Source: Thermogutta terrifontis (lineage in GTDB: Bacteria; Planctomycetota; Planctomycetia; Pirellulales; Thermoguttaceae). Taken from it: a stretch of 64,000 bases of DNA. Each line of letters opens with the position of its first letter. Positions within the stretch are counted from its first letter, which is position 1. The DNA is taken from NCBI RefSeq assembly GCF_002277955.1, contig NZ_CP018477.1, forward strand, positions 4,113,206 to 4,177,205, written 5' to 3'. The translations under genes were made by a program, and so were the position numbers. A model generated the notes under the pieces. That model worked only from the letters and a program-made list of their open reading frames with translations, had not been told where the DNA came from and ran no database searches. This document shows positions 10,491 through 34,652 of the stretch, piece by piece.

Positions 10491-10526
10491 AAACTTTTAG
10501 CCCGGTGCAGGATAGCAAGGTATATG

Positions 10527-12293
10527 ATGGCCAAGCGTCCCAAACAGATTTCGGTGACAATTGACGACACGCCGGTGAAGGTACCGGAAGGCACAACGAT
10601 TATGCAGGCTGCGGAAAAAATTGGCATCCGCATTCCGCGCCTGTGCTATCATCCGGATTTGAGCCTCGCGGGGGCATGTCGAGTCTGTGTCGTGGAAGTC
10701 GAGGGTCTGCCGGGGTATGTGGCCTCGTGCAGCCTTCCGGTTTGGGAGGGGATGGTTATCCGCACCAATTCGCCGGAAATCAGGCAGGCCCGGCGCGACA
10801 TTGTCGAGCTGATTCTGGATAATCACCCGATGGATTGCCAGACCTGCGAGCGCGACGGAAACTGCGAACTTCAAAACTTGGCGTATTCCCTGGGCGTTCG
10901 CGAGCGTTTGTTCGCGGGACGGCGCAAAGAGTTTCCGATTGATGATTCCAGTGTGGCAGTTGTCCGTAATCCCAACAAGTGCATTCTCTGTGGGCGGTGC
11001 ATTCGGGTATGCGCGGAAATCCAGGGGGTTTATAACCTCAGTCAGCACGGTCGAGGCTTTACCACGGTAGTCGGGCCAGCCCATTTGGCCAATATGGATG
11101 ACTCGGTGTGCATCCAGTGTGGTCAGTGCATTAATGTGTGCCCGACAGCGGCATTCCTGGAGAAATCGAGCACCGACATTGTTTGGGAAGCCCTAGCCAA
11201 CCCCGACCTCCATGTCGTCGTGCAGACGGCTCCATCCATCCGCGCCGCCATCGGCGAGGGCTTCGGCTATCCTCCCGGTACACCCTGCACGGGAAAGATG
11301 ATCACGGCTCTTCGTCTCCTCGGTTTTGATGCCGTGTTTGACACGGACCTGGGGGCTGACCTCACCATCGTGGAGGAAGCGCACGAATTTCTGACGCGGT
11401 TGGAATCGGGCGGTCCGCTTCCCATGATCACCTCATGCTCGCCGGGCTGGATCAATTTCCTTGAGAAGTTTTATCCCGAGTTGATCCCGCATGCCTCTAC
11501 CTGCAAGTCCCCGATGAGTATGCTCTCGACGCTGGCGAAAACCTACTATGCCGAACGGAAAGGCATTCCTCCGGAAAAGATTTTCATGGTGGCGGTGATG
11601 CCCTGCGTCGCGAAAAAGTTTGAAGCCCAGCGGCCTGAACACCGCATGCCCAACGGTCGGCCGTACACTGATGCCGTGTTAACCACCCGCGAGCTTATCT
11701 GGATGATCAAATGCTACGGTATTGATTTCACCAAGTTGCCGGACGGGGAATTCGATGCGCCTTTGGGGATCGCGTCCGGTGCTGGCGATATTTTCGGAAC
11801 AACCGGCGGTGTGATGGAGGCAACGCTGAGGGCGGCTGCACGGATACTCACCGGGAAGAAACCCGATCGACTGGAGTTCACTGAGGTTCGTGCCGTCGAG
11901 GGCCTCCGAGACACATACGTCGCGATCGGGGAGCGGAATCTCCATGTCGCCGTCGCCAATGGGCTGAATAATGCCAAGGAAATCCTCAACAAAGTTGTGT
12001 CAGGAGAGGATCATTACGACATCATCGAGGTGATGGCCTGTCCGGGCGGCTGCATCGGTGGTGGTGGACAACCTTATCCTCCCGAAGGCTATCACATCCT
12101 CGATCCCGCACTGCTGCGGAAGCGCGCCAGCGCCCTGTACGCTATCGATAGTGCTAAGCAACTGCGTGAATCCTACGAAAACCCCGCTCTGGAAGAGCTT
12201 TACGAAACCTATCTGGGAAGCCCTGGATCAACCCGGGCGCACCAGCTTCTCCACACGAGTTATCGACCGCGATTGCCGAGGGGTATCCGATGA
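10527..12293 (+). CDS. hydA: [FeFe]-hydrogenase catalytic subunit (HydA, M3-type architecture)
   Basis: Reduces protons to H2 or oxidises H2 at the H-cluster. Two adjacent ATGs (10524, 10527) exist; the second has better spacing from AAGG. Numbering here is from the first. Domains in order: [2Fe-2S] ferredoxin (C41, C52, C55, C69); His-ligated 4Fe-4S motif (H101, C105, C108, C114); two 4Fe-4S clusters (CILCGRCIRVC at 153-163 and CIQCGQCINVC at 196-206); and the H domain. H-cluster motif L2 is MPCVAKKFE (C361), and L3 is EVMACPGGCIGGGGQP (C506, C510). Motif L1 reads TSCSPGW (C305, S306) rather than the classical TSCCPGW, so the usual ligand position carries Ser. The small-subunit-like C-terminus (LYETYLGSPGSTRAHQLLH) is present. 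The maturases HydE/F/G are not in the window. Confidence 0.93.
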   Translation: MAKRPKQISVTIDDTPVKVPEGTTIMQAAEKIGIRIPRLCYHPDLSLAGACRVCVVEVEGLPGYVASCSLPVWEGMVIRTNSPEIRQARRDIVELILDNHPMDCQTCERDGNCELQNLAYSLGVRERLFAGRRKEFPIDDSSVAVVRNPNKCILCGRCIRVCAEIQGVYNLSQHGRGFTTVVGPAHLANMDDSVCIQCGQCINVCPTAAFLEKSSTDIVWEALANPDLHVVVQTAPSIRAAIGEGFGYPPGTPCTGKMITALRLLGFDAVFDTDLGADLTIVEEAHEFLTRLESGGPLPMITSCSPGWINFLEKFYPELIPHASTCKSPMSMLSTLAKTYYAERKGIPPEKIFMVAVMPCVAKKFEAQRPEHRMPNGRPYTDAVLTTRELIWMIKCYGIDFTKLPDGEFDAPLGIASGAGDIFGTTGGVMEATLRAAARILTGKKPDRLEFTEVRAVEGLRDTYVAIGERNLHVAVANGLNNAKEILNKVVSGEDHYDIIEVMACPGGCIGGGGQPYPPEGYHILDPALLRKRASALYAIDSAKQLRESYENPALEELYETYLGSPGSTRAHQLLHTSYRPRLPRGIR

Positions 12294-12859
12294 ACACACA
12301 CCACACCTGCACGTCCACGACTGACAACTGGCCCGAGGTCAAAGCCGTTTCAGAACGGATTCTCGGAGAGGACCTGGTTCAGTTTATCGAAGAATGCCGA
12401 AAAAGCCCGGAGCCGCACAGTCAGCTCATTGCGGTTTTACACCGGGTCCAGGCCAAGTTTGGCTATTTGGGCGCCAGTCATTTGGATGCGGTCGCCCAAC
12501 TGATGCAGATTCCGGCGGCGAAAGTTTCGGGCGTTGCCAGTTTTTATCATTACTTTCGTTTGCAACCACGGGGAAAATTCATCATCAATCTTTGCTTGGG
12601 CACCGCATGTTACGTGAAGGGGGCCGATCGACTTGCGGAAAAGCTTAAAGACGAACTAGGAATTCATTTCGGAGAGACGACCTCCGATGGACTTTTTACT
12701 CTGGAGGGGGCCCGTTGCCTTGGCGCGTGCAGTCTCGCTCCAGTTCTCACGATCAACGACGAAATGCACGGTACAGTCACGCCAGATCAGATTCCCATCA
12801 TTCTCGACCGCTACATCAAGCGCGCCCGAGAAGAAACCCAGACAAGCCCGCAAACTTAA
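12290..12859 (+). CDS. hydC: [FeFe]-hydrogenase NuoE-like [2Fe-2S] subunit (HydC-like)
   Basis: Small electron-transfer subunit of the trimeric hydrogenase. It overlaps the hydA stop by four bases (ATGA), with GAGGGG seven bases upstream, so translation is probably coupled. The 189-residue protein has the NuoE helical N-terminal domain (LIAVLHRVQAKFGYL, SFYHYF) and a thioredoxin-like [2Fe-2S] domain with ligands C102 and C107 (CLGTAC) and C143 and C147 (CLGAC). The gene order NuoF-like, HydA, NuoE-like, all co-directional, is that of an NAD(H)-dependent bifurcating hydrogenase. Electron bifurcation itself is inferred from family and subunit composition. Confidence 0.92.
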   Translation: MNTHHTCTSTTDNWPEVKAVSERILGEDLVQFIEECRKSPEPHSQLIAVLHRVQAKFGYLGASHLDAVAQLMQIPAAKVSGVASFYHYFRLQPRGKFIINLCLGTACYVKGADRLAEKLKDELGIHFGETTSDGLFTLEGARCLGACSLAPVLTINDEMHGTVTPDQIPIILDRYIKRAREETQTSPQT

Positions 12860-12915
12860 CCTTCCTTTGTGGAAACAACCTGGAGCGGGAATAGCCACGT
12901 CCGAAAATCGCGGAT

Positions 12916-13839
12916 TCACGCTCTTGCGGGCGTTGAGTCGTGAAGCACGCTTCGTAAGCCCACTACCAGATCCCAGTGCTGTGTGGGCTTCGGTAACACG
13001 CATATCCGCGGCCAGTATTGGATGAACTGGTAGTCCTCGCAAATGGGAAAGCCTGCCAGAAGCACCCAGCCGCAACCGCGAGGGGAGGCTCGATACGACC
13101 TGACGATGAGCCGCCGAATCTGACGAAGTTCATCGGCATTCGCCGCTTGCACGTCGTAAATAGCTGCCCTGACAGGATGCCAGTTCACTAGGGCTGCTTC
13201 TGGTGTTGTCATCAACACCTCAACGGGCCACCGCTCAAGCATCTGCCTGATCCAGAGGAGCTCATCGGGATACGTTCCAATGAGAGCTATCTGAAGCGGC
13301 GCTTCTATGTGCGGCAAAGTAGGAATGGGTAATTGTGAGCGGGCTAAATGGATTTCTTCTTCACCTGCGGTTGGGGGCAGTGCGCTGAGGGGATTGGTTT
13401 CATTCTGCAAAAGCTGAAGAAGGTCCTTCGCTACAACACGCCATTGAGACCACGACAGCCGCAGGACGCCCGGCAAAGGTGTGCCCGTGCGCGGTTCACT
13501 CTCGCACCAGGGCCCATGGACGACAAGCCAGCGAGTGAGGGGTGTCAACCGGTGGAGAGTATATCGGTCAGCTTGGGAAAACTGGCCGGGCCGATCCTGG
13601 AAAAGAATCAACCAGTCGGGAAATATCTGTCTGGTTCTTACGGTGTCGATAACTTTTTCCAAGGCGGAAAAGGTGTGTACCGCTATCGACGCGTCTCCCT
13701 CAGCAGTGAGCGGTAGAGCAAGTTCAGACTGGCAATCTGAAACAAAGAAAACCACGGTTTTCATAGCGAAAACTATGACGGGTGCACCGGTTGACACATC
13801 TCCAGTTTCCTCCGCCGATGGGGACACTGACGTCCACAC
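12916..13839 (-). CDS. Uncharacterised protein with two alpha/beta halves
   Basis: I do not recognise this gene. The frame is open for 307 residues from a GTG at 13839; an internal ATG at 13764 (MKTVVFFVSDCQ) may be the true start, and neither has a clear ribosome site. Two similar-looking halves can be seen. Residues ~26-130 start with a hydrophobic strand (KTVVFFVSD), followed by DWLILFQD and RWLVVHGPW. Residues ~190-300 start with LQIALIGTYPDELLWIRQMLE, followed by AAIYDVQAANADELRQIRRLI and GWVLLAGFPICED. The alternation resembles degenerate receiver or Rossmann folds joined by a Pro/Glu-rich linker, but no phosphoacceptor motif is evident. It converges on the hydrogenase operon and diverges from csrA. 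Confidence 0.55.
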   Translation of the reverse strand: MWTSVSPSAEETGDVSTGAPVIVFAMKTVVFFVSDCQSELALPLTAEGDASIAVHTFSALEKVIDTVRTRQIFPDWLILFQDRPGQFSQADRYTLHRLTPLTRWLVVHGPWCESEPRTGTPLPGVLRLSWSQWRVVAKDLLQLLQNETNPLSALPPTAGEEEIHLARSQLPIPTLPHIEAPLQIALIGTYPDELLWIRQMLERWPVEVLMTTPEAALVNWHPVRAAIYDVQAANADELRQIRRLIVRSYRASPRGCGWVLLAGFPICEDYQFIQYWPRICVLPKPTQHWDLVVGLRSVLHDSTPARA

Positions 13840-14299
13840 GGGAAGGTGTGGGAGTGGGGATTCAACTCAGAGGGTCCTGACGGTAGGGGAGATTGATGTA
13901 TTGCCCCTACCACAAATTGCGTCCATGTCATCTCAGCAGTCTTTGCACAAGTGGGGATGGATCAGGCGCGCCAGCGTATGTCACATCCCGCAAGTCCACA
14001 GTTTATATCCAAACTGGGGGACCTCTATCAAGGGATTTAAACCGTCATGGGACGAGTGAACCTTTGACGGGGACGCAGCTCAAGAGCACGACCCGCCCGA
14101 TGCGCTCATCACATTCCATACAATCGTTGCTCGGCAAGTGTCATTCACCCCACTTGCGAATTGTGCCGAAGCGATAAGTCAGAGGATATTCGGGATCGAG
14201 GAGGAGCAGCGCTGACGTGCCCTGTGGGGCTCGGCGAGTGCAGCGTCTTGAAAGTTGGAGCATTTCGGACGGACAAACCATGATACAAAGGAGTGTACG
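13840..14299. other. Intergenic region between the unknown gene and csrA
   Basis: 460 bases separating divergent genes, presumably holding promoters for both. A stretch AGCGATAA near 14168 resembles a sigma-28 -10 element but lacks a matching TAAA upstream. The csrA ribosome site AAAGGAG lies at 14287-14293. No gene is supported here. Confidence 0.4.
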
Positions 14300-14539
14300 A
14301 TGCTTGTCCTTTCTCGCCAGCGCGACGAGAGTATTATCATCGGGGACAACATCGTCGTGACGGTGGTCGATATTCGCGGGGATAAGGTGCGTCTGGGTAT
14401 CGAGGCGCCCCCGGAAGTGAGTGTTCATCGTCGCGAGGTGTACGAGGCTATTCAACGCGAAAAAAGGCAGAAAGCCGCTCAAACGCCGTCAAAAGCCGAA
14501 TCGCAAACGCCCTCACAGGAGGAAAAAAACAACCGGTAA
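14300..14539 (+). CDS. csrA: CsrA family carbon storage / translational regulator
   Basis: RNA-binding dimer that blocks or alters translation at GGA-containing leaders. The start at MLVLSRQRDESIIIGD has AAAGGAG seven bases upstream; a longer open frame from 14255 has no support. The 79-residue protein contains the full CsrA beta-barrel sequence: LVLSR at the N-terminus, then VVTVVDIRGDKVRLGIEAP and VSVHRREVYEAI, including the conserved Arg in VHRREV. A lysine/glutamine-rich tail extends ~20 residues past the fold. It sits directly before two flagellin genes. In many bacteria CsrA represses flagellin translation, with FliW as antagonist. No fliW is seen in the window. Confidence 0.95.
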   Translation: MLVLSRQRDESIIIGDNIVVTVVDIRGDKVRLGIEAPPEVSVHRREVYEAIQREKRQKAAQTPSKAESQTPSQEEKNNR

Positions 14540-14569
14540 ATAACGGTTGTACAGGCTGTGCGGATGTTA

Positions 14570-14617
14570 CGGCCACGAGACGAAAACTTCCCACGTCTTG
14601 TGGCCGGTTTCGTTTTT
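14570..14617 (+). terminator. Rho-independent terminator after csrA
   Basis: A 13-base stem CGGCCACGAGACG pairs with CGTCTTGTGGCCG (one G-T pair) across an 11-base loop and is followed by GTTTCGTTTTT. A smaller hairpin, ACAACCG with CGGTTGT (14529-14550), lies just upstream over the csrA stop. This separates csrA transcription from the first flagellin. Confidence 0.87.
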
Positions 14618-14690
14618 GTAACCTACATTTTTCTGCCGAAGCGAACAAAAGAGGAATCGATTTGGGTTTGGCAGGCCGGTGTAAATTACC

Positions 14691-14718
14691 TAAAGTGCCT
14701 GAACATCCCAGTCGATGT
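14691..14718 (+). promoter_or_regulatory. Candidate sigma-28 flagellar promoter for flagellin 1
   Basis: TAAA at 14691-14694 and GTCGATGT at 14711-14718 resemble the flagellar consensus TAAA-N15-GCCGATAA, here with 16 bases spacing and three mismatches in the -10 part. It lies 200 bases before the start codon, between the csrA terminator and flagellin 1. Confidence 0.3.
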
Positions 14719-14862
14719 GCCTCGATAGAGCGATGAATGGACGAAAAACGGTTCATCCGTCTTCCACGCTGAGAACGGTGTGGAGGGGAGCTCATAAGGG
14801 ATCAACACCGGCCTTTGAAACCCGCGCTAAACCGGTCCAGTTGCTCCCATTGTGAGCTAACG

Positions 14863-14917
14863 GTTAGGAAACAGAGTTTGGCTTGGTCCTCTTACGTTAA
14901 GGAAAAGGGTAACAGAC
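14863..14917 (+). promoter_or_regulatory. Flagellin 1 leader with candidate CsrA-binding GGA motifs
   Basis: Two AGGA-type sites lie in the leader: one at 14866-14869 and one overlapping the ribosome-binding site (AAGGAAAAGGG at 14899-14909), eight bases before the ATG. Two GGA sites, with one covering the ribosome site, is the arrangement by which CsrA represses hag in Bacillus. CsrA binding here is inferred from motif and neighbourhood only. Confidence 0.3.
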
Positions 14918-17900
14918 ATGACCCGGATTAACACGAACATCAGCTCGTTGACGGCTCAGAAGACTCTGGCTCGTTCTCAGGCTCAATTGCAGGAAGCTCT
15001 TACCCGCTTGAGCACCGGTTTGCGGATCAATGTCGGCAAAGACGACCCGGCGGGATTGATTGCAAGCGAGGCTCTCCGGGCGGATATTACGGCTGTTCAA
15101 AAGGCTATCACGAACAGCCAGCGGGCGAATCAGATGATTGCCACGGCCGACAGCGCCCTGGGCCAGGTCAGCCAATTGCTCAACGACATCCGGGGATTGG
15201 TTTCCGAGGCAGCCAACAAGGGTGCGATGAGTGCGGAGCAGATCGCGGCGAATCAGCTTCAGATCGATTCTTCGCTGGAGGCAATCGACCGAATCGCTAA
15301 GGTGACACAATTCCAGGGTCAGCGGCTCCTCGACGGTAGCTTCGATTTCATCACCTCCGGCGTGGACAGCTCAAAGATTACCAGTCTGCAGATCGATCAG
15401 GCCAACTTCGGGTCGCTATCCAAGATCGACGTCAATGTGGATATCGTGTCGCAGGCGTCCAAGGCCCAGTTGACGTACAACTATGGTGCATTGGCCACCG
15501 ACGTGGTCCTGGAGATCGCCGGAAAAGACGGTGCTGAGGCTTTCAGCTTCGCGGCGGGAAGCTCGATCCAGGATATGGCTAAGGCAATCAATCTCGTGTC
15601 CGACGCGCTGGGAGTTCGCGCCGTTGTGCACCAGGAAGCGACGGCCGGTCGGGTTACAGCCTCCAGCTTTGGGTCGAATAATGACGTCATCATTACCGCC
15701 AACCAGGCTGGCCAAGCGGCCGGTGATATTCGGATCAAATACACGAAGAACAATAGCGCAACCACCCAGGTGGTTTACACGCCCGCCAGCGGCGGCACGC
15801 CGGGGCTCATCGAGGTCAAGCTTGGCACGCGTCAGTGGGAGGCGGCGAGTGGGGTGTTGGATCCTTCGGGGACGAACAATGCGATCAAGATTACGGCGAA
15901 GGTGAAGGGGGAGGAGTTTAACGGGGTGAATGTGCAGTTGACGATTGGTGGATTGCAGAGTGTGAGTTATGATCATACGACGAAGACGTTGAGCATTACG
16001 GCGACGGCGACGGATACGGCGCAGGACATAGTGAATTTGATCAACAATGATGCGGCGGTGGGGGCGTTGTTTACGGCGGCGAATTATGGGGAGTCGGATG
16101 GGAGTGGGACGGTAGCGGCGGCGAGTGTGACGTTGAGTGGGGGGGTGACGGGGGGTGATGTGATTGCGACGGCGAACGATGTGGTGGCGGCGATCAACAG
16201 TTCGGCGGCGAGTGCGGTGGTGACGGCGAGTTTAGCGGCTGGGGACAATGGGTATGGGGTGGTGAGTCCATTTCAGGAGTACGCGTACTATGGGAGTGTG
16301 GAGGCGAACAATCGGTTGCAGTTTTTGGGGCCGGAGGGGAGTCGGAAGATTCGGTTTGTGTCGAATCCTGGGGAGAGTTTGAGTGTGGATTTGACGACGG
16401 ACCCGCGGGTGGAGGGGTTTTCGTCGGCGATTGTGCAGGGGGTGAATGCGAACAGTACGTTGAAGATTACGGCGCGGTATAAGGGGGAGGCGTATGATGG
16501 GGTGCAGATTGTGTTCAATGACAGTACGGACAACACGGTGGTGTGGGATGCGGAGAGCAAGACGCTGACGTTCAATGTGGACATTAGTGGGGGGTTTACG
16601 GCGCAGCAGGCGGTGAATTTGTTGAACAATGACAGTTATGCGGGGAAGTATTTTCGGGCGGAGAATTTTGGGACGAGTAATGGGAGTGGGGTGTTGAGTG
16701 CGACGATGACGGGGACGACGAGTGGGGGCGTGGTGAGTGAGGGGACGGTGATAGTGCATTTGGCGACGACGTCGGACGGGATTGTGACGACGACGGCGCA
16801 GGATTTGATTAATTACTTTAATGATCCGGCGAATGCGGGGTTATTGAGTGGATTAGGGATCAGTGTGAGCAATGTGGCGGGGAGTGATGGGAGTGGGAAG
16901 CTTGCACCGACGGTGAGTGATTTGGAGTTTGCGACGAGTGGGACGCAGTTGCAGGAGGCGCAGGCGAGTGGGACGACGTATGCGGTGAATGGGGCGAATG
17001 CGCGGTTGACGTTGACGGCGGTGGCGCCTGGGGCGGACTGGAATGGGGTGCGGTTGGTGTTTGAGGACACGGCGACGGCGGGGAATGAGACGGTGGTTTG
17101 GGATGCGGCGACGAAGACGCTGACGGTGGGGATTCAGAGTGGTGTGAGCACGGCGAACCAGGTGATTGCGGCAATCAACAATGACGCCGTGGCCAGCCAG
17201 TTGTTCACCGCCAGCCTCGCCACAGGCAGCAACGGCACTGCTGCTGTGACCGACTCCGATTTCGCCGTGCTCTCGGGAGGCGTTGTGGACGTTGGGGCCC
17301 AGTACGGGGTGGCCCTGGTGGGCAACAGCGATGCCGAAAACATTGGTCTGACTTTTGAGGCGACCGACTACGGGAGCCAGGCCTTTGTCTCGGTGAAGGC
17401 ACTCAGCGGCACGTTCGTGACGACGGACGCCAGTGGGCGAGTAACAGATCGGGCGGTGGGTGCCGACGCTCGGATTCGGGTCAACGGCTACGAAGCCGTC
17501 ACCTCAGGTCTCACCGCGTCCATCAACACGGCCTCGCTGGATCTGACCTTCACCATCGACCCGAACGCCGCGGCCGGAACCAGGACGTCGTTCTCCATTG
17601 TGGGTGGCGGTGCGCTCTTCCAGCTTGGTCTGGATGTGGTGTCCAATCAGCAGGCGCGTATTGGAATTCGCAGTGTCAATACAGCCAAGCTGGGCGGTGC
17701 CCGAGGTCGGCTCAACGAGCTTCGATCTGGCGGTGCCAAGTCGCTGGCCAATGATCCGATCGGCGCAGCCGCTGTGGTCGATGAAGTGATCTCGCAAATC
17801 ACCACTTTGCGGGGTCGGTTGGGGGCGTTCCAGCGGACTACTTTGGAAACGAATATCAGCGCCCTGAACGACACGCTGGAGAATCTGACCGCGGCGGAAA

Positions 17901-18034
17901 GCGATATCCGCGATGCTGACTTCGCGGCGGAAAGCGCGAAACTCACCCGTGCCCAAATCCTGGTCCAATCGGGTACGTCGGTGCTGGCCATTGCGAACCA
18001 GAATCCGCAGGCAGTTCTCGCCTTGCTGCGGTAA
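14918..18034 (+). CDS. Giant flagellin 1 with repeat-containing central domain
   Basis: Filament subunit of 1038 residues, about twice ordinary flagellin length. The N-terminal D0/D1 helices are canonical (ITRINTN-type start, then SSLTAQKTLARSQAQLQEAL and LSTGLRIN with KDDPAGLIAS). The C-terminal D1/D0 is also canonical (ISQITTLRGRLGAFQRTTLE, ETNISALNDTLENL, SDIRDADFAAESAKLT, ending NPQAVLALLR). Between them lies a large surface region with at least three related units starting near NNAIKITAKVKGEEFNGV, NSTLKITARYKGEAYDGV and NARLTLTAVAPGADWNGV. Each continues to a V-WD--(T/S)KTL strand and an INND/LNND segment like the flagellin hook-IN motif. Residues 302-769 are nearly identical to flagellin 2 and are encoded with a strong G-ending codon bias. 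It has its own terminator and is not preceded by a chaperone gene. Confidence 0.95.
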   Translation: MTRINTNISSLTAQKTLARSQAQLQEALTRLSTGLRINVGKDDPAGLIASEALRADITAVQKAITNSQRANQMIATADSALGQVSQLLNDIRGLVSEAANKGAMSAEQIAANQLQIDSSLEAIDRIAKVTQFQGQRLLDGSFDFITSGVDSSKITSLQIDQANFGSLSKIDVNVDIVSQASKAQLTYNYGALATDVVLEIAGKDGAEAFSFAAGSSIQDMAKAINLVSDALGVRAVVHQEATAGRVTASSFGSNNDVIITANQAGQAAGDIRIKYTKNNSATTQVVYTPASGGTPGLIEVKLGTRQWEAASGVLDPSGTNNAIKITAKVKGEEFNGVNVQLTIGGLQSVSYDHTTKTLSITATATDTAQDIVNLINNDAAVGALFTAANYGESDGSGTVAAASVTLSGGVTGGDVIATANDVVAAINSSAASAVVTASLAAGDNGYGVVSPFQEYAYYGSVEANNRLQFLGPEGSRKIRFVSNPGESLSVDLTTDPRVEGFSSAIVQGVNANSTLKITARYKGEAYDGVQIVFNDSTDNTVVWDAESKTLTFNVDISGGFTAQQAVNLLNNDSYAGKYFRAENFGTSNGSGVLSATMTGTTSGGVVSEGTVIVHLATTSDGIVTTTAQDLINYFNDPANAGLLSGLGISVSNVAGSDGSGKLAPTVSDLEFATSGTQLQEAQASGTTYAVNGANARLTLTAVAPGADWNGVRLVFEDTATAGNETVVWDAATKTLTVGIQSGVSTANQVIAAINNDAVASQLFTASLATGSNGTAAVTDSDFAVLSGGVVDVGAQYGVALVGNSDAENIGLTFEATDYGSQAFVSVKALSGTFVTTDASGRVTDRAVGADARIRVNGYEAVTSGLTASINTASLDLTFTIDPNAAAGTRTSFSIVGGGALFQLGLDVVSNQQARIGIRSVNTAKLGGARGRLNELRSGGAKSLANDPIGAAAVVDEVISQITTLRGRLGAFQRTTLETNISALNDTLENLTAAESDIRDADFAAESAKLTRAQILVQSGTSVLAIANQNPQAVLALLR
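15821..17226 (+). repeat. Copy 1 of a ~1.4-kb near-identical flagellin cassette
   Basis: This stretch matches 19361-20766 with about 18 base differences by eye and no gaps (about 98.7% identity); sequence on both sides diverges sharply. It encodes residues 302-769 of flagellin 1. Composition is markedly strand-skewed: in 16081-16140 I count 31 G and 6 C. Codons end overwhelmingly in G (GCG, ACG, GTG, TTG, GGG), unlike the flanking flagellin sequence. The bias also opens long spurious frames on the opposite strand. Confidence 0.93.
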
Positions 18035-18457
18035 TTCGGGTGACATAGACAAACCCTCTCACGCTTGATGCGTTAGAGAGGGATGGGGAAGAGGAACACG
18101 GCCGATCAGTCCAGATCGGCCGTTTCTGTTTGCGCAGGGGTGCAGTTCGAACACCACGGCATTCCTCTGACGACCACACATTATCAGGTTGGGCCCACAA
18201 AGTTTCCTTGGTTTCGCTACCTTATTTCCGATAAGGATCGCAACATCGGAAAAACTGCGCGTTTTGGTCAATTGGCTTCAACCCCTTCAAGTCATCCTTT
18301 CGATAAAAGCGAAAGAGGGTCACGCAGACGGTTCCGCGAGGAACTCCTGCCATGGAAATCGGGAGTTGAGCCCCACAGCCAGCGCGCCCTTGGAGATAGA
18401 CGCCGGCGATCATAGCCACGTGCATTGCAAGTACGGAGTCAGGAGGAAGGGAGTCCC
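18035..18457. other. Intergenic region and leader between the two flagellins
   Basis: 423 bases. It starts with a hairpin CCCTCTCACGC / GCGTTAGAGAGGG (18054-18082), then a strong terminator. Further down are two mutually exclusive small hairpins: CCTTAT/ATAAGG (18220-18236) and TTTCCGAT/ATCGGAAA (18225-18252). The end has a strong ribosome site AGGAGGAAGGGAG (18441-18453), which also holds GGA motifs. TTCCGATAA at 18226-18234 resembles a sigma-28 -10 element, but no -35 lies at the right distance. Confidence 0.4.
18098..18131 (+). terminator. Rho-independent terminator after flagellin 1
   Basis: A perfect 10-base stem ACGGCCGATC / GATCGGCCGT with a six-base loop (AGTCCA) is followed by TTCTGTTT. 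It makes the two flagellins separate transcription units. Confidence 0.87.
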
Positions 18458-21400
18458 ATGACCCGGATCAATACGAACATCAGCTCGTTGACGGCTCAGA
18501 AGACCTTGGCTCGTTCTCAGGCTCAGTTGCAAGAGGCACTCACCCGACTGAGCACGGGTTTGCGGATCAACTCGGGCAAGGACGACCCTGCAGGCTTGAT
18601 TGCCAGTGAAACGCTGCGAAGCGACATCACGAGTATTCAGCGGGCGATTGTGAACAGCCAGCGGGCCAGCCAGATGATCGCCACAGCCGACAGCGCCCTG
18701 GGCCAGGTCAGCCAATTGCTCAACGACATCCGGGGATTGGTTTCTGAAGCAGCCAACAAGGGCGCGTTGAGTGCGGAGCAGATTGCGGCGAATCAGCTTC
18801 AGATCGATTCTTCACTGGAAGCGATTGACCGAATTGCGCAGGTGACGCAATTCCAGGGACGGCGGTTGCTGGATGGTAGCCTCGATTTCGTGACGGAGGG
18901 AGTGGACAGCTCAGCGATTCGGGATTTGCAAATTGATCAGGCGAATTTCGGTAGCAACAACGAAATTGGCGTCAACGTGACTGTCGTGAAACAGGCAACC
19001 CGAGCAGAATTGCGTTACGCCTTTGGGGCCGTGGCCAACGACGTGGTTCTGGAGATCGGTGGTAAGCAGGGTTTTGAAGCGTTCACCTTTGCAGCCGGAA
19101 GTTCCGTCGAGGACATGGCCAAGGCGATCAATCTTGTGTCCGACGCCACGGGGGTGATCGCAGAGGTACAAAAGGAAGCCACCGCAGGACGCGTTGTGGC
19201 GTCGAGTGTGGGGGCACACAACGACGTGATCATCACCGCCAATCAGGCGGGCGAAGCGGCGGGTAACGTCAGAGTCAAGTACACCAAGAACGCCACGGCT
19301 GCTACGACGGTCAACTTCACGCCTGCCAGTGGAAGCAGTCCGGCGGTGCTGGAGGTTCGCCTTGGCACCCGTCAGTGGGAGGCGGCGAGTGGGGTGTTGG
19401 ATCCTTCGGGGACGAACAATGCGATCAAGATCACGGCGAAGGTGAAGGGGGAGGAGTTTAACGGGGTGAATGTGCAGTTGACGATTGGTGCATCGCAGAG
19501 TGTGAGTTATGACCATACGACGAAGACGTTGAGCATTACGGCGACGGCGACGGATACGGCGCAGGACATAGTGAATTTGATCAACAATGATGCGGCGGTG
19601 GGGGCGTTGTTTACGGCGGCGAATTATGGGGAGTCGGACGGGAGTGGGACGGTTGCGGCGGCGAGTGTGACGTTGAGTGGGGGGGTGACGGGGGGTGATG
19701 TGATTGCGACGGCGAACGATGTGGTGGCGGCGATCAACAGTTCGGCGGCGAGTGCGGTGGTGACGGCGAGTTTAGCGGCTGGGGACAATGGGTATGGGGT
19801 GGTGAGTCCGTTTCAGGAGTATGCGTACTATGGGAGTGTGGAGGCGAACAATCGGTTGCAGTTTTTGGGGCCGGAGGGGAGTCGGAAGATTCGGTTTGTG
19901 TCGAATCCTGGGGAGAGTTTGAGTGTGGATTTGACGACGGACCCGCGGGTGGAGGGGTTTTCGTCGGCGATTGTGCAGGGGGTGAATGCGAACAGTACGT
20001 TGAAGATTACGGCGCGGTACAAGGGGGAGGCGTATGATGGGGTGCAGATTGTGTTTAATGACAGTACGGACAACACGGTGGTGTGGGATGCGGAGAGTAA
20101 GACGCTGACGTTCAATGTGGACATTAGTGGGGGGTTTACGGCGCAGCAGGCGGTGAATTTGTTGAACAATGACAGTTATGCGGGGAAGTATTTTCGGGCG
20201 GAGAATTTTGGGACGAGTAATGGGAGTGGGGTGTTGAGTGCGACGATGACGGGGAGGACGAGTGGGGGCGTGGTGAGTGAGGGGACGGTGATAGTGCATT
20301 TGGCGACGACGTCGGACGGGATTGTGACGACGACGGCGCAGGATTTGATTAATTACTTTAATGATCCGGCGAATGCGGGGTTATTGAGTGGATTAGGGAT
20401 CAGTGTGAGCAATGTGGCGGGGAGTGATGGGAGTGGGAAGCTTGCGCCGACGGTGAGTGATTTGGAGTTTGCGACGAGTGGGACGCAGTTGCAGGAGGCG
20501 CAGGCGAGTGGGACGACGTATGCGGTGAATGGGAAGAATGCGCGGTTGACGTTGACGGCGGTGGCGCCTGGGGCGGATTGGAATGGGGTGCGGTTGGTGT
20601 TTGAGGACACGGCGACGGCGGGGAATGAGACGGTGGTTTGGGATGCGGCGACGAAGACGCTGACGGTGGGGATTCAGAGTGGTGTGAGCACGGCGAACCA
20701 GGTGATTGCGGCAATCAACAATGATGCCGTGGCCAGCCAGTTGTTCACCGCCAGCCTCGCCACAGGTAGTGACGGATCTGGTGCCGTCACTGTGTCGGAT
20801 TTTGCTGAACTTTCCGGTGGTGTTGTCGATGTTGGCACCGCTGACGGGGCACCCCTCATTGGAAATGAAGAACAGGCGACCACAGGACTGGTTTTCAAGG
20901 CGGTCGAGTTCGGGTCAGATGCTTTCGTCTCTGTGAAGGCCCTCAATGGGACAAGCTTCACTGTAACGGACCGCGACGGAAACCAGGCGACGCGGAGCGC
21001 GGGAACGGACGTGCAGGTTCTGGTGAACGGGATTGCGGCAGTCGGCAAGGGACTTCGGGCGTCTATCAATACAGCCGCGCTCGATCTGTCATTCAGTGTT
21101 TCAGAAAGTCTGGCAGACGGCACAATGACCGCATTCCGCATTGTGGGCGGTGGGGCGCAATTCCAGCTCGGCCCCGATGTTGTCTCCAACCAGCAGGCCC
21201 GCCTGGGTATACAAAGTGTGAACACGGCAAAACTCGGGGGGGTTGCCGGCCGGCTATTCGAATTGCGATCAGGTGGTGCGAAGTCCCTTACCCGCGATGT
21301 GAACGGCGCAGCCGCTGTGGTTGAAGAAGTCATTGCCCAGATCACCACACTGCGCGGTCGATTGGGAGCGTTCCAGCGAACCACACTGGAAACCAATATA

Positions 21401-21583
21401 AGTTCCCTCAATGACACGTTGGAAAATCTGACAGCGGCGGAAAGCTCAATCCGGGATGCCGACTTCGCTGCCGAAAGCGCAGCATTGACCCGTGCGCAAA
21501 TTCTCGTCCAATCGGGTGTCTCGGTTCTGGCTATTGCCAACAACAACCCGCAAGCGGTGTTGGCTCTCCTTCGCGGTGGGTGA
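18458..21583 (+). CDS. Giant flagellin 2, paralog of flagellin 1
   Basis: Filament subunit of 1041 residues. The start is the ATG at 18458, with the strong ribosome site AGGAGGAAGGGAG a few bases upstream; the frame opens 33 bases earlier but without support. The N-terminal 301 residues align without gaps to flagellin 1 at roughly 80% identity. Residues 302-769 are about 99% identical, and the remaining C-terminal part diverges again before the conserved D1/D0 end (SSIRDADFAAESAALT, NPQAVLALLRGG). Local differences from flagellin 1 in the shared block are few: GGLQS becomes GASQS, GTTSGG becomes GRTSGG, and NGANAR becomes NGKNAR. The presence of two flagellins suggests a filament with mixed or switchable subunits. 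Confidence 0.95.
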   Translation: MTRINTNISSLTAQKTLARSQAQLQEALTRLSTGLRINSGKDDPAGLIASETLRSDITSIQRAIVNSQRASQMIATADSALGQVSQLLNDIRGLVSEAANKGALSAEQIAANQLQIDSSLEAIDRIAQVTQFQGRRLLDGSLDFVTEGVDSSAIRDLQIDQANFGSNNEIGVNVTVVKQATRAELRYAFGAVANDVVLEIGGKQGFEAFTFAAGSSVEDMAKAINLVSDATGVIAEVQKEATAGRVVASSVGAHNDVIITANQAGEAAGNVRVKYTKNATAATTVNFTPASGSSPAVLEVRLGTRQWEAASGVLDPSGTNNAIKITAKVKGEEFNGVNVQLTIGASQSVSYDHTTKTLSITATATDTAQDIVNLINNDAAVGALFTAANYGESDGSGTVAAASVTLSGGVTGGDVIATANDVVAAINSSAASAVVTASLAAGDNGYGVVSPFQEYAYYGSVEANNRLQFLGPEGSRKIRFVSNPGESLSVDLTTDPRVEGFSSAIVQGVNANSTLKITARYKGEAYDGVQIVFNDSTDNTVVWDAESKTLTFNVDISGGFTAQQAVNLLNNDSYAGKYFRAENFGTSNGSGVLSATMTGRTSGGVVSEGTVIVHLATTSDGIVTTTAQDLINYFNDPANAGLLSGLGISVSNVAGSDGSGKLAPTVSDLEFATSGTQLQEAQASGTTYAVNGKNARLTLTAVAPGADWNGVRLVFEDTATAGNETVVWDAATKTLTVGIQSGVSTANQVIAAINNDAVASQLFTASLATGSDGSGAVTVSDFAELSGGVVDVGTADGAPLIGNEEQATTGLVFKAVEFGSDAFVSVKALNGTSFTVTDRDGNQATRSAGTDVQVLVNGIAAVGKGLRASINTAALDLSFSVSESLADGTMTAFRIVGGGAQFQLGPDVVSNQQARLGIQSVNTAKLGGVAGRLFELRSGGAKSLTRDVNGAAAVVEEVIAQITTLRGRLGAFQRTTLETNISSLNDTLENLTAAESSIRDADFAAESAALTRAQILVQSGVSVLAIANNNPQAVLALLRGG
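19361..20766 (+). repeat. Copy 2 of the ~1.4-kb near-identical flagellin cassette
   Basis: Partner of 15821-17226, at exactly the same offset (903 bases) from its start codon. Most of the ~18 differences are third-position changes, often T/C or A/G. Both edges are abrupt: identity begins at CTTGGCAC and fades after GCCTCGCCACAGG. The same G-rich, C-poor codon pattern is present in both copies. Confidence 0.93.
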
Positions 21584-21661
21584 ACAATGAAACTGCTCGC
21601 CGCATAGGGCCATATTACTGACAAAGTCGGGTTAATCGCGTGAATGAAGCGAGAGCGGCAG

Positions 21662-22159
21662 TTAACCGGACCCGTCAGAAGCTCGGGCATCTCCGGTGTT
21701 CTCCGCGGAGATGCTGGAGCCACCGCCCCGGAGATGTTTACCATTTCCGTGAATCCGCTTCAGTTTATCTGCGAGGAGTGACAGCCGGACCTGTTCCAGG
21801 TCGCTGCGGTGCTTGAGCTGATTAAAATGATAAACGCCAACAAGAAGATCGCCCGTGGCAAGGACTACCAGCCAGATGGTGAGAAGGGCGGTCGCCAGCC
21901 AATAGCCGATGGCCCAGACGGGGTGCTCAGTATTGGAGAACATCAATCGACCCGCCCAAAGGAGCAGGCCAAGCACGATCATAAGAAAGCTGATCTGGGC
22001 ACGCCGGTAAAATCGCCGACGAAGAAACTCCAAATCGGAGGATGTAGCCCTCTTTGAGAGCACTGACCAAGCACGGGCCTGCCATGCCAACAAAATAACC
22101 CCTGCGGCTACGATCGCCCAGGGGAAAGTCACGTCACTCCATTCTGCCCAGCCGCTCAT
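21662..22159 (-). CDS. Small membrane protein of unknown function
   Basis: A 165-residue protein with three predicted membrane helices: about residues 12-28 (FPWAIVAAGVILLAW), 53-70 (ISFLMIVLGLLLWAGRL) and 82-105 (AIGYWLATALLTIWLVVLATG). A basic segment (SDLEFLRRRFYRRAQ) lies between helices 1 and 2, and the tail is charged (RSDLEQVRLSLLADKLKRIHG). I do not recognise the family. It is convergent with flagellin 2 and lies 102 bases upstream, on the same strand, of no close partner except the ferredoxin gene behind it. Confidence 0.65.
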   Translation of the reverse strand: MSGWAEWSDVTFPWAIVAAGVILLAWQARAWSVLSKRATSSDLEFLRRRFYRRAQISFLMIVLGLLLWAGRLMFSNTEHPVWAIGYWLATALLTIWLVVLATGDLLVGVYHFNQLKHRSDLEQVRLSLLADKLKRIHGNGKHLRGGGSSISAENTGDARASDGSG

Positions 22160-22261
22160 ACTTGCAATCCCCTAAAAGCGGGGAGGCTCAATCGCAGTTC
22201 GCCATAGCCGAGGCGAACTACCCGTCGCCCAGGCGAACTACGGATGTCGTTGAGATTGGCG

Positions 22262-22540
22262 TCAGGCTTCGCAAAGGGGTTTCTTTTTTTCCGTTATTTT
22301 CGGACACTGGGGAGCCATTTCCGCGTTAATCTTGATGTACTCTTTCCATTCCTCGGGAACATTGTCAGCCAGGAAAATGGCGTCCACCGGACATTCGGGG
22401 ACACACGCCTCGCAGTCGATGCATTCATCCGGATGGATGTAAAGCATCATCTCCCCTTCGTAGAAGCACTCCACCGGGCAAACCACCACACAATCCGTAT
22501 ACTTGCACCCATAGCATGGTTTACAAACGACGTGTGTCAT
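22262..22540 (-). CDS. fdxA: 7Fe ferredoxin (FdxA type, 3Fe-4S plus 4Fe-4S)
   Basis: Low-potential electron carrier of 92 residues. The Cys pattern matches Azotobacter ferredoxin I with a one-residue offset: C9, C17 and C50 for the 3Fe-4S cluster, and C21, C40, C43 and C46 for the 4Fe-4S cluster, with the additional C12. The YTDCVVVCPVECFYEG and HPDECIDCEACVPECP segments are diagnostic. A GGAG lies nine bases before the ATG. It might serve the hydrogenase as ferredoxin partner, but it is 10 kb away and bifurcating enzymes normally use 2[4Fe-4S] ferredoxins, so this is speculative. Confidence 0.93.
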   Translation of the reverse strand: MTHVVCKPCYGCKYTDCVVVCPVECFYEGEMMLYIHPDECIDCEACVPECPVDAIFLADNVPEEWKEYIKINAEMAPQCPKITEKKKPLCEA

Positions 22541-22842
22541 ACCGATTTTCTCCGCAATTGCAGACAGATCAACGAACCGTTGGACGCCGCAATATTGTAT
22601 CTCTGACGGGTTCGCAGGAATTTCCCCTCCCGCGACGAAGCGCGCTTTATGTCATATTATGGAGGCAAAAAATCAATGTCAAGGAACGAGTGCGCTATTG
22701 CGGAAATAGGGGCAAACCCATCCAAATGCCGCTCGCGAGACGCCCTTTGCCGGCATCGGATTGTCGCGGCTGGATCGCTACAAATTACTGAATACGCGAA
22801 TCTCAGACCAGATCGTTTTATTCTAAACCGAGAGGAAATGCC
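22541..22842. other. Intergenic region upstream of the ferredoxin
   Basis: 302 bases that should hold the divergent promoters of fdxA and the small Cys protein. Open frames here have no ribosome site and no recognisable protein features. No hairpin stands out. Confidence 0.4.
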
Positions 22843-23079
22843 ATGCATGCCAGGCATCGGACGCCGCTAATAAAACGCTTCCTTGCGGCCGTCTTCAGTC
22901 CTGAGTTCTGCGAAAAGTGGTGCCCAATCTGTGTGCGGGCTCGAAAAGGAGTTCGCTGGGCCCGCTGGGTTCAGCGATTGGAGCTCGCTTTGACAGCCGG
23001 TGGCTGCCCGTGGGGACGCGCCCGCCAGAAAAAATACGGCGTGCCGCCCAACCTGCCGATTGGCAAAGGGGTAGAATGA
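22843..23079 (+). CDS. Small Cys-containing basic protein
   Basis: A 78-residue open frame with a good ribosome site (AGAGGA, six bases before ATG). It has a CEKWCPIC cluster (two CxxC-like pairs) near residue 23, then a basic helix-like middle (RARKGVRWARWVQRLEL), and a GCPWGRARQKKYG motif near residue 54. I have the impression that short proteins with the CPWGRARQ-type motif recur in Planctomycetota, but I cannot confirm it here. It is followed after 61 bases by the beta-lactamase-fold gene. The function is unknown; possible metal binding is inferred from the Cys spacing. Confidence 0.55.
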   Translation: MHARHRTPLIKRFLAAVFSPEFCEKWCPICVRARKGVRWARWVQRLELALTAGGCPWGRARQKKYGVPPNLPIGKGVE

Positions 23080-23140
23080 AACTGCAAGGCTTACCCGTTT
23101 TTCCATCGCCACGTGGAATTTGTTAGGAGAAGACATTTTT

Positions 23141-24343
23141 GTGGTTCAAACAATGATACGGCGAAAGCCCGCTGGGCAAGGTTGGCATATAATCCTTTAT
23201 TTTTCTGCGGTTTTGATCACGTGCAGTTTCCTTCCAGTGAGACCGGCACTCGGAAAGGATGATTTGCCGGCTCGGCTGGAGGGTGCGGTGCGTCCTTTCA
23301 TCGTCAATCACCAACTCGCGGGCTGCGTGATGGTTGTGGCTGACAAGCATAAGATAATCCATACCATCACACTTGGCTGGGCGGACGTCGACGCGAAAAG
23401 GCCAATGCAGGCCGATACCCTTTTCTGGATTGCGTCGCAGTCGAAACCGATCACGGCCACCGCGTTGATGATCCTGGTGGATGAGGGCCGTGTTCAGCTC
23501 GACGATCCGGTGGAAAAGTATCTCCCGGAGTTCCGCGGACAGTGGTTGATTGCGGAAGCGGCTGAAAACCGCGTGCTTCTCAAGAGGCCTTCACGGCCAA
23601 TCACTGTTCGGGATATTCTGTCGCACACAAGTGGACTCCCGTTTCGATCCGCGCTGGAGGTACCCACGTTGGATGTGTTCCCGCTGGCTGCCCGGGTACG
23701 AAGCTATGCCATGACGCCGCTGGAATTTGACCCTGGTCGCCGCTATCAGTACTCCAACGCCGGTATCAATACGGCTGCAAGAATTGTGGAAGTGGTCACC
23801 GGAAAACGGTTCGAAGAATTTCTCAAAGAGCGGATCTTCGAACCACTTGGAATGAAAGACACAACCTTTTGGCCTGACAAAGAGCAACTTTCCCGGCTGG
23901 CCAGAGCATATCGGTATGATGCTCAGTCGAAAGAGCTTGTATCCGTTCAAATCGACCAACTGGCCTATCCACTCGATGACAGGCAAAACCGGTATCCGGT
24001 TCCAGCGGGCGGATTGTTCTCTACGGCTGCTGACTTGGTAAAGTCCTATCAGATGCTTTTAAATAATGGCACGTTTGAAGGAAAACGGCTTATATCGGAA
24101 GACGCCGTGCGAGAAATGACATCGCGTCAGACCAGGCCGGAACTTGATAACAGTTATGGATTGGGTTTTGTGGTCAATGGTCCGGTGTTTGGTCACGGTG
24201 GCTCGCATGGAACCAACACCCTCGCGGATCGGCGGAAGGACGCGATCCTTGTGTGGCTTGTCCAGCATGCGGGGCCAGAGGCGCAAGAAGCTTTTCGCCA
24301 GGTGGACCAGATTTTCAGTGAATGGTCTCCTGATCGCGGTTAA
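23141..24343 (+). CDS. Exported serine hydrolase, class C beta-lactamase / esterase fold
   Basis: Penicillin-binding-protein-like hydrolase, probably an esterase or peptidase rather than a resistance enzyme. I choose the GTG at 23141 because AGGAGAAG lies eight bases upstream; a TTG at 23120 and an ATG at 23153 are alternatives. The 400-residue product has an N-terminal hydrophobic signal (about residues 15-37, IILYFSAVLITCSFLPVRPALG). Catalytic S99-Q-S-K102 is the SxxK motif in FWIASQSKPITATAL. YSN is in RRYQYSNAGIN, and HGG near the C-terminus takes the place of KTG. LSHTSGLPF is also typical of the family. The natural substrate cannot be deduced. Confidence 0.9.
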   Translation: MVQTMIRRKPAGQGWHIILYFSAVLITCSFLPVRPALGKDDLPARLEGAVRPFIVNHQLAGCVMVVADKHKIIHTITLGWADVDAKRPMQADTLFWIASQSKPITATALMILVDEGRVQLDDPVEKYLPEFRGQWLIAEAAENRVLLKRPSRPITVRDILSHTSGLPFRSALEVPTLDVFPLAARVRSYAMTPLEFDPGRRYQYSNAGINTAARIVEVVTGKRFEEFLKERIFEPLGMKDTTFWPDKEQLSRLARAYRYDAQSKELVSVQIDQLAYPLDDRQNRYPVPAGGLFSTAADLVKSYQMLLNNGTFEGKRLISEDAVREMTSRQTRPELDNSYGLGFVVNGPVFGHGGSHGTNTLADRRKDAILVWLVQHAGPEAQEAFRQVDQIFSEWSPDRG

Positions 24344-24411
24344 AAACATCACAGTGGTGGAGCATTTTTCTGGGTTTATTTGAGACACAATATTAGGCGA
24401 GTAAAGATACT

Positions 24412-26361
24412 ATGCCGGCTATTCCAAAGAAAGACCTCACGAACTTCCTCCCCATGACCCGAGAGGAAATGGAAGCTCGGGGTTGGGACTATGTGGACGT
24501 GGTATTCGTAACAGGCGACGCCTACGTGGATCACCCGAGTTTCGCCATGGCCTTGCTGGGGCGGCTGATGGAGGCCGAAGGATACCAGGTGGCGATTCTT
24601 AGCCAGCCGGACTGGCATTCATGTGAGCCCTGGAAGAAGTTTGGGCGTCCGCGGCTGTGCTTCGCAGTTAGTGCTGGGAATATGGATTCCATGGTGAATC
24701 ATTACACGGCGAACCGCAAAGTGCGGAATGATGACGCGTACAGTCCTGGAGGCCGAATTGGTTTGAGGCCGGATCGCGCCACGCTCGCATACTGCCAACG
24801 CGCGCGGGAGGCCTACAAGGGCGTGCCGGTGATTGCGGGAGGAGTGGAAGCCAGTTTGCGTCGCATCGCCCACTATGACTACTGGAGCGACAAAGTACGG
24901 CGATCCATTCTTCTCGACTCCAAGGCCGACCTTCTCGTCTACGGAATGGGTGAGCGTCCGCTTTTGGAGATTTTGCGCCGACTCGCTGCCGGAGAGCCTA
25001 TCAAAAATATCCGGGACGTTCGGGGTACGGCCTACCGGCTGGGTGCTTCAGAAAAGCCTCCGGAGGATGCGATCTATCTGCCGTCCTACGAGGAGGTTGT
25101 AGCAAGCAAGGAAGCTTTTGCGCGGATGACCAAGATGGCTCACTTGGAAACCAATCCTTACAATGCCCGGCGCCTTGTGCAATACCATGATCGTGAAGCT
25201 GTAGTCATTAATCCACCGGCGTTTCCATTAACGGAGGAGGAGATGGACCGGGTGTACGGGCTTCCTTTCCAAAGGCGGCCCCACCCTCTGTATGGCGACG
25301 AACCCATTCCCGCATTTGAAGTAGTCAAACACTCCGTCCAAATTATGCGGGGTTGTTTTGGTGGGTGCACATTTTGTTCCATCACCGCCCACGAAGGTCG
25401 GATTATTCAAAGTCGGTCACCGCAGTCGATTATTCAGGAAATTGAAAGGTTAAAACAGGACCCCGAATTCAAAGGCGTCATCAGTGATATCGGCGGTCCA
25501 ACTGCAAATATGTATCGGATGAATTGCAGCCGTCCGGAGGTTCGGGAAAAATGCCGCCGTTTGAGTTGTATCCATCCGACAATATGTAAGCTTTTAAATA
25601 CCAGCCACGGACCGCTCATTGAACTCCTCAAGCAAGTGCGACATGTGCAGGGTATCAAAAAGGTGTACGTGGCTTCGGGAATCCGCATGGATCTGGCTCA
25701 GTTAAGCCCTGCTTACATGAATCATCTCGTGCGTTATCACGTGGGCGGCCACCTTAAAGTAGCCCCCGAGCACTGCGATCCCGATGTATTACGCCTGATG
25801 AAAAAGCCAAGCATCGAGGATTTTGAAAGATTTGCGAAGAAATTTCACGAACTTTCCCGCGCTGCGGGAAAGGAACAATATCTGGTGCCGTATTTTATTT
25901 CGGGTCACCCTGGCTGCGATCTTAAGGCGATGATCCGCCTTGCGGAGTTTCTCAAACGCACTGGGTATCGCCCCCAGCAGGTTCAGGACTTCATGCCCAC
26001 GCCCTTTGATATTGCCACGTGCATGTATTACACCGGTATCGACCCGATGACCGGTGAAAAAGTCTACGTTCCGCGTGGCGAACGCGAGCGAAGGCTCCAG
26101 CGGGCACTCCTTCAATTCTGGAAACCGGAGAATTATTTTCTCGTTCGCGAGGCCCTCCAACTGGCCGGCAGAACAGATTTGATTGGGAGTGGCCCTCAAT
26201 GTCTCATCCCGTCGCGCCCGCCGAAAGAAGCCCTCGTCGCCCGCCGAAAAAGCCAGCACGAGAGAACAGGGGCTGAGCATCCGACCGGAATGAAGGCCAC
26301 CGTGGCGGGCTATCGTCCGCACCGAAAGACGTTTCGGCGTAGAACGACCAAGAAAAGCTGA
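24412..26361 (+). CDS. YgiQ family radical SAM protein
   Basis: A 649-residue UPF0313/YgiQ-type radical SAM enzyme. The N-terminal domain has the family opening [18 protein letters not shown] and [10 protein letters not shown]. The radical SAM cluster is the C-x3-C-x2-C in [18 protein letters not shown] (around residues 315-322). Further conserved segments are GHLKVAPEH and [11 protein letters not shown]. The last ~60 residues are basic ([23 protein letters not shown]), as often seen in the family. The reaction is not established for the family. It lies 68 bases after the serine hydrolase, on the same strand. Confidence 0.93.
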
Positions 26362-32710: not shown

Positions 32711-32774
32711 CATACGATCGGCTGATTGAGGTGGTCGCGCGGCGGAAGAAAGAGTTTTAAACCGACGCGGAATC

Positions 32775-32812
32775 GACAAAACAAACGGCCCCGTTCGCAG
32801 AGGATCGGGGCC
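32775..32812 (-). terminator. Terminator after the DUF1559 gene
   Basis: The seven-base stem GGCCCCG / CGGGGCC with a 12-base loop is followed on the minus strand by GTTTGTTTTGTC. It lies 40 bases past the DUF1559 stop. On the plus strand the same stem is followed by TGATTATT, so it may also stop the UvrA-paralog transcript. Confidence 0.75.
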
Positions 32813-32851
32813 TGATTATTCACTCTTAATCCGGCCAAACCGGATCGGATT

Positions 32852-33832: not shown

Positions 33833-33893
33833 ACAAGACCTCCACTCAACAACAATTACGGGAAACGGGAACAACGAACCGCAGGTAAGGCGA

Positions 33894-34361
33894 TCAGAAT
33901 TTGTTTGGATCGTCGGAGATCGGGACTGCCTGGACCCTCTTGAGTGGGCCGGTGATATCGATCCGGAGCGAGTCGGTCGGCTTGTCGATGGTCACAGTCA
34001 GACCACTTGTCTCAGGATCGGCATATTTTTCATCAATGAGCGAGACACTTTCCTGTCCGACCATCGCGTTGAGGATGATAGCGACTTTGTGCGTACCGGG
34101 CACGCAGCCGTCACCATTCTCGAAAGTCGTCAGTGTGAATTTTCCGGTTTGAGGGTCAATCTGACCGGTGGCGGGCCGAGTCCCTTCAGGCACCACCCGT
34201 ATGAAGCCCGGCACCCCCGCTGCAAGCGGTTGACCGTCGATAAAAACCTGTCCAGACACTTTAACGAGCCTGGGTCTCCCTTTTCCGCAGCCGAGAATCA
34301 ATGGGGCGAGGGCCAAAAATAATAGTGCTAATGCACCAGCGCGACCAACACGTAGACACAT
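33894..34361 (-). CDS. Small lipoprotein paired with DUF1559
   Basis: A 155-residue secreted lipoprotein. The signal sequence ends in the lipobox LILGC (lipidated Cys at residue 25). The rest is beta-rich: [19 protein letters not shown] looks like a carboxypeptidase-regulatory-like repeat, followed by [14 protein letters not shown] and [17 protein letters not shown] lies eight bases before the ATG. The stop is 61 bases from the DUF1559 start, so the two genes form an operon. This gene pair is a recurrent planctomycete arrangement. The function is unknown. Confidence 0.82.
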
Positions 34362-34618: not shown

Positions 34619-34652
34619 CGGCTCGGAGGAGGGACGTCAGCTTGGCTGCGTG

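Follow-up and report, generated by a model that had tools for sequence, protein, structure and literature searches.

The question raised by a pair of tandem flagellin genes of Thermogutta terrifontis R1 is how two paralogues have come to share an almost identical central part between diverged ends, and why this central part displays a third-base composition so different from that of its flanks. The genes are located in a window of 64,000 nucleotides (contig NZ_CP018477.1, positions 4,113,206 to 4,177,205), which is part of a one-contig genome of 4,810,751 bases, described as one circle of 4,810,751 bp in the genome report (CP018477; PMC5673643). Flagellin A (1038 residues, 14918..18034, plus strand) and flagellin B (1041 residues, 18458..21583, plus strand) both contain, above the Pfam cut-off, the Flagellin_N (8e-29 and 2.1e-29, respectively) and Flagellin_C (4.8e-21 and 6.1e-20) domains, together with Flagellin_IN matches (1.5e-6 and 1e-4). 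No clear relation was found between the sequences upstream of A and of B.

The codon alignment of A and B comprises 508 differences over 3114 ungapped bases, 18 of which occur in codons 302-769, the homogenised cassette (15821..17224 in A and 19361..20764 in B, plus strand). A preliminary description of the locus had put this region at about 99% identity with some 18 differences, in agreement with the 1386 of 1404 bases and 464 of 468 residues found identical; it also gave about 80% for residues 1-301, which is right for the protein (238/301) but not for the DNA (679 of 903 bases, 75%), and it rightly noticed that the C-terminal parts differ (48-81% identity per 100-base bin of the 3' part). 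The best high-identity segment, A 15830-17226, scores 1244; when the difference positions were permuted 1000 times, no score exceeded 122. The 18 differences are scattered over the 1404 bases, and 13 of the 17 differing codons are synonymous. The flanks of A (14918..15820, coding for the N-terminal helices and the first beta part, with codons 1-303 taken for its composition, and 17225..18034, diverged from B; both on the plus strand) are of normal composition.

Silent sites and site patterns discriminate between the causes that may be invoked for this identity. Thermogutta sp. MAG-77, the sister of R1, possesses a complete A and a B that ends at codon 364, and the four-gene test of orthology accordingly covers the 5' side only. 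In codons 1-301 of the four genes, 124 sites are of the orthologue type and 11 are concerted, versus 0 and 6 in codons 302-364 (Fisher p 1.3e-6), these counts excluding other variable patterns (153 and 13, respectively, summed from bins). In the 5' part the genes group by orthology; the 3' parts of A and B are diverged. Within the cassette, paralogues are closer than orthologues, A and B differing at 3 of 230 four-fold degenerate sites and R1 and MAG-77 at 15 of 223. Selection for an identical exterior, the other cause put forward in the preliminary description, could be understood if a filament built of two flagellins benefits from a uniform surface; acting alone, however, it fails to account for the homogenisation of silent sites and for the flip of the site patterns at the cassette edge, and as a substitute for conversion it is hardly credible. 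An assembly collapse or a polishing artefact could be suspected, near-identical repeats being error-prone and the contigs of relatives breaking at the cassette, but 18 sites distinguish A from B, the genome has been published as one circle, and the separately assembled MAG-77 displays the skewed composition described below in A and in the covered part of B, so that an artefact is extremely improbable.

In MAG-77 and in two other Thermogutta genomes, G002 and G003, contigs begin or finish with identical paralogue sequence (87, 141 and 54/55 bases, respectively) at the cassette or within it, as expected because assemblies break at repeats. The cassette sequence available for comparison covers codons 304-470 in G002 and 14 codons in G003, the rest of the cassette being missing from the second copy of MAG-77 and from both copies of G002 and G003. 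The G002 paralogues are mosaic, some 25-codon bins being 95-100% identical and others 72-88%. A further near-identical patch occurs upstream of the main cassette, at codons 251-275, in the pairs of G002 (L062/L063, 96%) and G003 (L065/L066, 95%). In G026, which belongs to another genus, the flagellin pair (L016, L061) offers a milder version of the tract, with a centre mostly 83-93% identical, ends 53-91% identical and no skew. The pair of G051, a more distant relative of R1 than G002, is of roughly uniform identity, the G018 pair contains no homogenised tract, and for the flagellins of G034, G011 and G012 the best within-genome DNA matches of at least 120 bases are at most 74% identical. There is thus hardly any doubt that A and B of R1 exchange their central block of about 1.4 kilobases (kb) by recurrent gene conversion. 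The conversion proposed in the preliminary description stands, but not as a single recent event peculiar to R1, because three other Thermogutta genomes share identical paralogue sequence and G026 shows the milder version; conversion is recurrent, yet not universal among the relatives compared.

The preliminary description did not mention the extreme base composition of the block, nor its sharp edges. A composition scoring scan, in which the base frequencies of the score were set by hand from earlier output, delimits as top segment codons 304-751 of A (15827..17170), 305-751 of B (19370..20710; both on the plus strand) and 304-752 of MAG-77 A. In the A block, 404 of 448 third bases are G or T, and the 233 four-fold sites consist of 217 G, 10 T, 5 A and 1 C, while the flanks of A contain 36-40% G and 33-36% C at such sites; in B, over codons 304-751, 217 of 232 are G. 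The GC skew reaches 0.497 in the A block versus 0.032 and 0.039 in its flanks, and 0.496 in the B block versus 0.110 and 0.057, the high coding-strand skew being confined to the cassette. Runs of at least three G amount to 34.9/kb on the coding strand of the A block and 0.7/kb on the other strand, versus 14-17 and 8-9 in the flanks. All 44 Lys, Glu and Gln codons end in G, Ser is encoded by AGT in 74% (n=42) and Leu by TTG in 79% (n=29) of cases. In a genome sample of 224 open reading frames (ORFs), taken from 15 stretches and the window, four-fold G is highest in the two flagellins, and 7755 other 100-codon windows average 0.35 (standard deviation 0.07) with a maximum of 0.73, in a transposase-like gene, versus 1.0 in the block. 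When 123 distinct flagellin-like ORFs or fragments of them (one gene may contribute several fragments) are ranked by their best 80-codon window for four-fold G, the eight leading entries come from R1 or MAG-77, and the highest value elsewhere is 0.69. At the two-fold pyrimidine sites of the A block (15827-17170), T accounts for 82-93% before G, T or C and for 33% before A, which is the genomic level (32%); similar next-base counts are found in B and in MAG-77 A. A flagellin-like gene of G034 (L069; L018 is the same gene) displays a GC skew of up to 0.45 around codons 600-1100, but its four-fold G does not exceed 0.58. A 10,025-codon open frame of G013 (C8, about 32713-50403) contains stretches related to the flagellin cassette.

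The relatives indicate how the block arose. The homologous cassette of G002 (codons 304-470) uses ordinary codons, with C at 72 of its 107 four-fold sites. At four-fold sites of codons 305-470 with the same residue and the same first two bases, C in G002 corresponds to G in R1 at 43 of 66, and all 47 C sites of G002 have changed in R1, 43 to G and 4 to T, none still being C. Beyond codon 470 the recoding is deduced from the more distant G051, where 77 of 138 conserved four-fold sites of the whole block differ as C to G, and from other relatives of normal composition. Over codons 305-462 the R1 and G002 proteins agree at 107 of 158 residues, and each of them agrees with G051 at 77 of 158; these distances fit vertical descent, which argues that the block arose in place. 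The comparison shows that the protein was largely kept while silent bases were rewritten, becoming G, or T at sites where a G would change the residue; this took place in the ancestry shared by R1 and MAG-77 once G002 had branched off, and it left the flanks unaffected. Recoding in place, held by some force, is therefore very probable. Alternatively, a donor organism or element of extreme codon usage could have supplied the skewed cassette by horizontal transfer, with later copying into both genes, and the composition of the block is indeed foreign to the genome sample; this origin is nevertheless improbable, considering the protein distances, the lack of any confirmed relative in viral contigs (0 of 17 pattern matches) or in plasmids, the restriction of four-fold G above 0.69 to R1 and MAG-77 among the flagellin-like ORFs, and silent changes that look balanced rather than like the decay of an insert.

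This balance emerges from the comparison of R1 with MAG-77. Four-fold sites diverge at 15 of 223 in the block versus 114 of 318 in the two A flanks (p 2e-16), but amino acids diverge equally, at 16 of 449 and 20 of 570 (p 1), which argues that the block has not passed recently from one lineage to the other, although such a transfer may have been followed by faster protein change. When the silent differences between A and B are polarised by MAG-77 A, 7 of 47 A/C sites have changed to G/T and 6 of 365 G/T sites have changed away (p 1.7e-4), these being small numbers with a single orthologue as outgroup; the skewed state looks at equilibrium, not like a decaying insert.

Several candidate forces were considered and rejected. 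Cytosine deamination on the coding strand is ruled out by the four-fold C that became G at 43 of 66 sites and T at only 4. Replication skew covers only -0.05 to +0.11 in the sampled stretches. An antisense gene is not favoured, TTA, an antisense stop, being kept in 10% of the 29 Leu codons where A-ending codons are otherwise rare. Loss of MutS finds no support in the presence of a MutS-family match in R1, MAG-77 and G003 (none in G002, which is 87% complete). Transposases, examined as a second skewed multicopy class, were uninformative, IS630-like four-fold G ranging from 0.29 to 0.68 in the 16 of 18 loci measured; two DDE_Tnp_1 places were found in the genome. The transposase gene L053:6947-7888 (G000:C1 near 4407000), presumably IS630-like from its motifs, has G-rich third positions and 18 genome matches, several with in-frame stops.

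A force acting at the RNA level deserves closer attention. Conversion would be real and would spread to both copies a codon pattern selected for unstructured messenger RNA (mRNA), translation speed or the timing of export of a large flagellin. The mRNA of the block is less folded, at -0.250 kcal/mol per base versus -0.327 for 30 recodings with flank codons (standard deviation 0.012), and four-fold G is the most tightly held state, the sites that differ between R1 and MAG-77 being distributed between four-fold and two-fold-pyrimidine positions as 15:11 in the block versus 114:30 in the flanks (p 0.025). However, a C-poor strand is a poor choice for unfolding an mRNA, since the complementary RNA would reach -0.103, and a synonymous shuffle with the same codon usage yields about the same energy (-0.256). 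Moreover, neither the genome sample nor a crude ribosomal-protein set (plus-strand ORFs of at least 85 codons in 20 kb, some not ribosomal) displays a comparable codon preference or a preference for T-ending (NNT) codons, a result with which translational optimisation in general does not fit either; the 46 transfer RNA matches include every anticodon once, except CAT; and we have no RNA-level reason to report for the coincidence of the 5' skew edge with the conversion edge. Selection at the RNA level as the source of the pattern is therefore doubtful.

With deamination, translational optimisation and mRNA folding fitting poorly, a force acting on one strand of the exchanged DNA remains. Recombination would then be what holds the recoding, a link to which we give about even odds. 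A strand-asymmetric force on DNA taking part in conversion could cause the rewriting in two ways: either mismatches are resolved in favour of the allele whose coding strand has G, or failing that T (strand-biased conversion), or selection retains a GT-rich strand with G-runs because it pairs more easily, which is the proposal made for the vls cassettes of Borrelia. RecA prefers GT-rich DNA. A new non-G allele arising in one copy would be replaced with the sequence of the other, and this would explain the frozen silent sites as well. As filament subunits, the two proteins would differ in their assembly ends but present almost the same surface across the cassette. In an AlphaFold2 model built from 18 sequences (mean predicted local distance difference test score 76, predicted template modelling (TM) score 0.48), helices occupy residues within 2-130 and 947-1037, with low confidence at the termini, and the cassette lies in a beta-rich middle that, from known flagellin structures, would correspond to the outer surface; flagellins rank highest among the Foldseek matches of the model, though their TM-scores are low. 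In favour of the link with recombination, the skew segment (codons 304/305-751) and the conversion segment (305-769) begin within one codon of each other, and the 3' skew edge falls inside a helix (746-755) of the model, with no obvious domain joint there.

On a wider scale, bacterial gene-conversion cassettes could converge on a G-run, C-poor coding strand, produced by strand-biased conversion or by pairing selection; this composition would have arisen independently in Borrelia vls and, by wholesale synonymous rewriting of the exchanged block within one genus, in a free-living thermophilic planctomycete. We assign this reading a probability of roughly 35%. Several observations weigh against the recombination-linked, strand-asymmetric force itself. 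The 3' edges of the skew and conversion segments differ by 18 codons. The identical 141-base cassette stretch of the G002 paralogues has C at 23 of 31 four-fold sites, which means that homogenisation needs no skew and does not create it alone, and G003 probably homogenises an unskewed cassette too (5 C and 4 G at the nine four-fold sites of its 14 codons). In the MAG-77 sequence covered, paralogue identity starts near codon 336 and the skew at 304. Only two genomes, R1 and MAG-77, carry the skew, the retention of two-fold C before A at the genomic rate is not predicted by the model of a strand-asymmetric force, and the literature examined contains no recombination assay for this locus. Finally, over codons 305-462 R1 is more distant than G002 from five remoter flagellins, by 3 to 6 residues, and its protein may, on these alignments, have changed slightly faster in the cassette.

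Concerted evolution of duplicate flagellins is an already known phenomenon, and the fla genes of Campylobacter are reportedly partly homogenised by conversion (Meinersmann and Hiett, 2000). In Thermogutta the homogenised part is a central block with diverged ends and a recoded tract. In Salmonella, the ends of fliC and fljB are alike and the centre varies, a pattern of which A and B offer the mirror image. The Salmonella pair resembles that of Thermogutta in consisting of two flagellin genes with recombination (PMC5744181). No recoded or skewed flagellin cassette is described in the titles and abstract openings of the literature searched.

The closest likeness is with the antigen-switching vls cassettes of the Lyme disease Borrelia, for which two papers give a mean GC skew of 0.52 and, in strain B31, 27 coding-strand G-runs/kb, the authors proposing a role in conversion (PMC11499132, PMC3585125). 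In both systems a surface-protein cassette undergoes conversion, with a similar coding-strand skew and density of G-runs, and with prominent GGG codons but no compact G-quadruplex arrangement (PMC11499132, for vls); in the block, no canonical motif (four runs of at least three G, loops 1-7) was found. There are also differences. Thermogutta is a free-living thermophile with a genome that is not AT-rich and an unrelated protein, and its flagellins form a pair of genes in tandem rather than a single expression site, the exchange being homogenising, not diversifying. There is no silent archive: over the entire genome the cassette DNA matches A and B alone (next expectation value 0.26), and other protein matches are only weak (34-37%), in a third flagellin. 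Variable regions of the vls type are absent, as the scattered differences indicate. In its composition and its exchange the Thermogutta block thus works as vls cassettes do, yet it falls outside that class, because it has neither silent archive nor variable regions. A search of 12000-26000 for inverted repeats of at least 60 bases found none.

Elsewhere in the window, an iron-only hydrogenase large subunit gene, followed by that of a thioredoxin-like 2Fe-2S protein, occupies 10524-12859.

According to a 2013 paper, direct testing of the reason for the vls G-skew was precluded at the time (PMC3585125); a 2025 title suggests that this situation is only now changing. Thermogutta offers the same exchanged cassette in a skewed and an unskewed form within one genus that includes a cultivated, free-living member, so that a connection of gene conversion with strand composition can be put to the test. 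In Thermogutta, some 450 codons have been silently rewritten, largely from C to G, and then kept, for which neither ordinary mutation bias nor codon optimisation offers a ready explanation. The case is also a warning that an aberrant composition within a gene does not necessarily point to foreign DNA. If the composition is truly a convergent mark, it would have arisen in a free-living thermophilic planctomycete in which, unlike in the setting of Borrelia vls, immune evasion is not expected.

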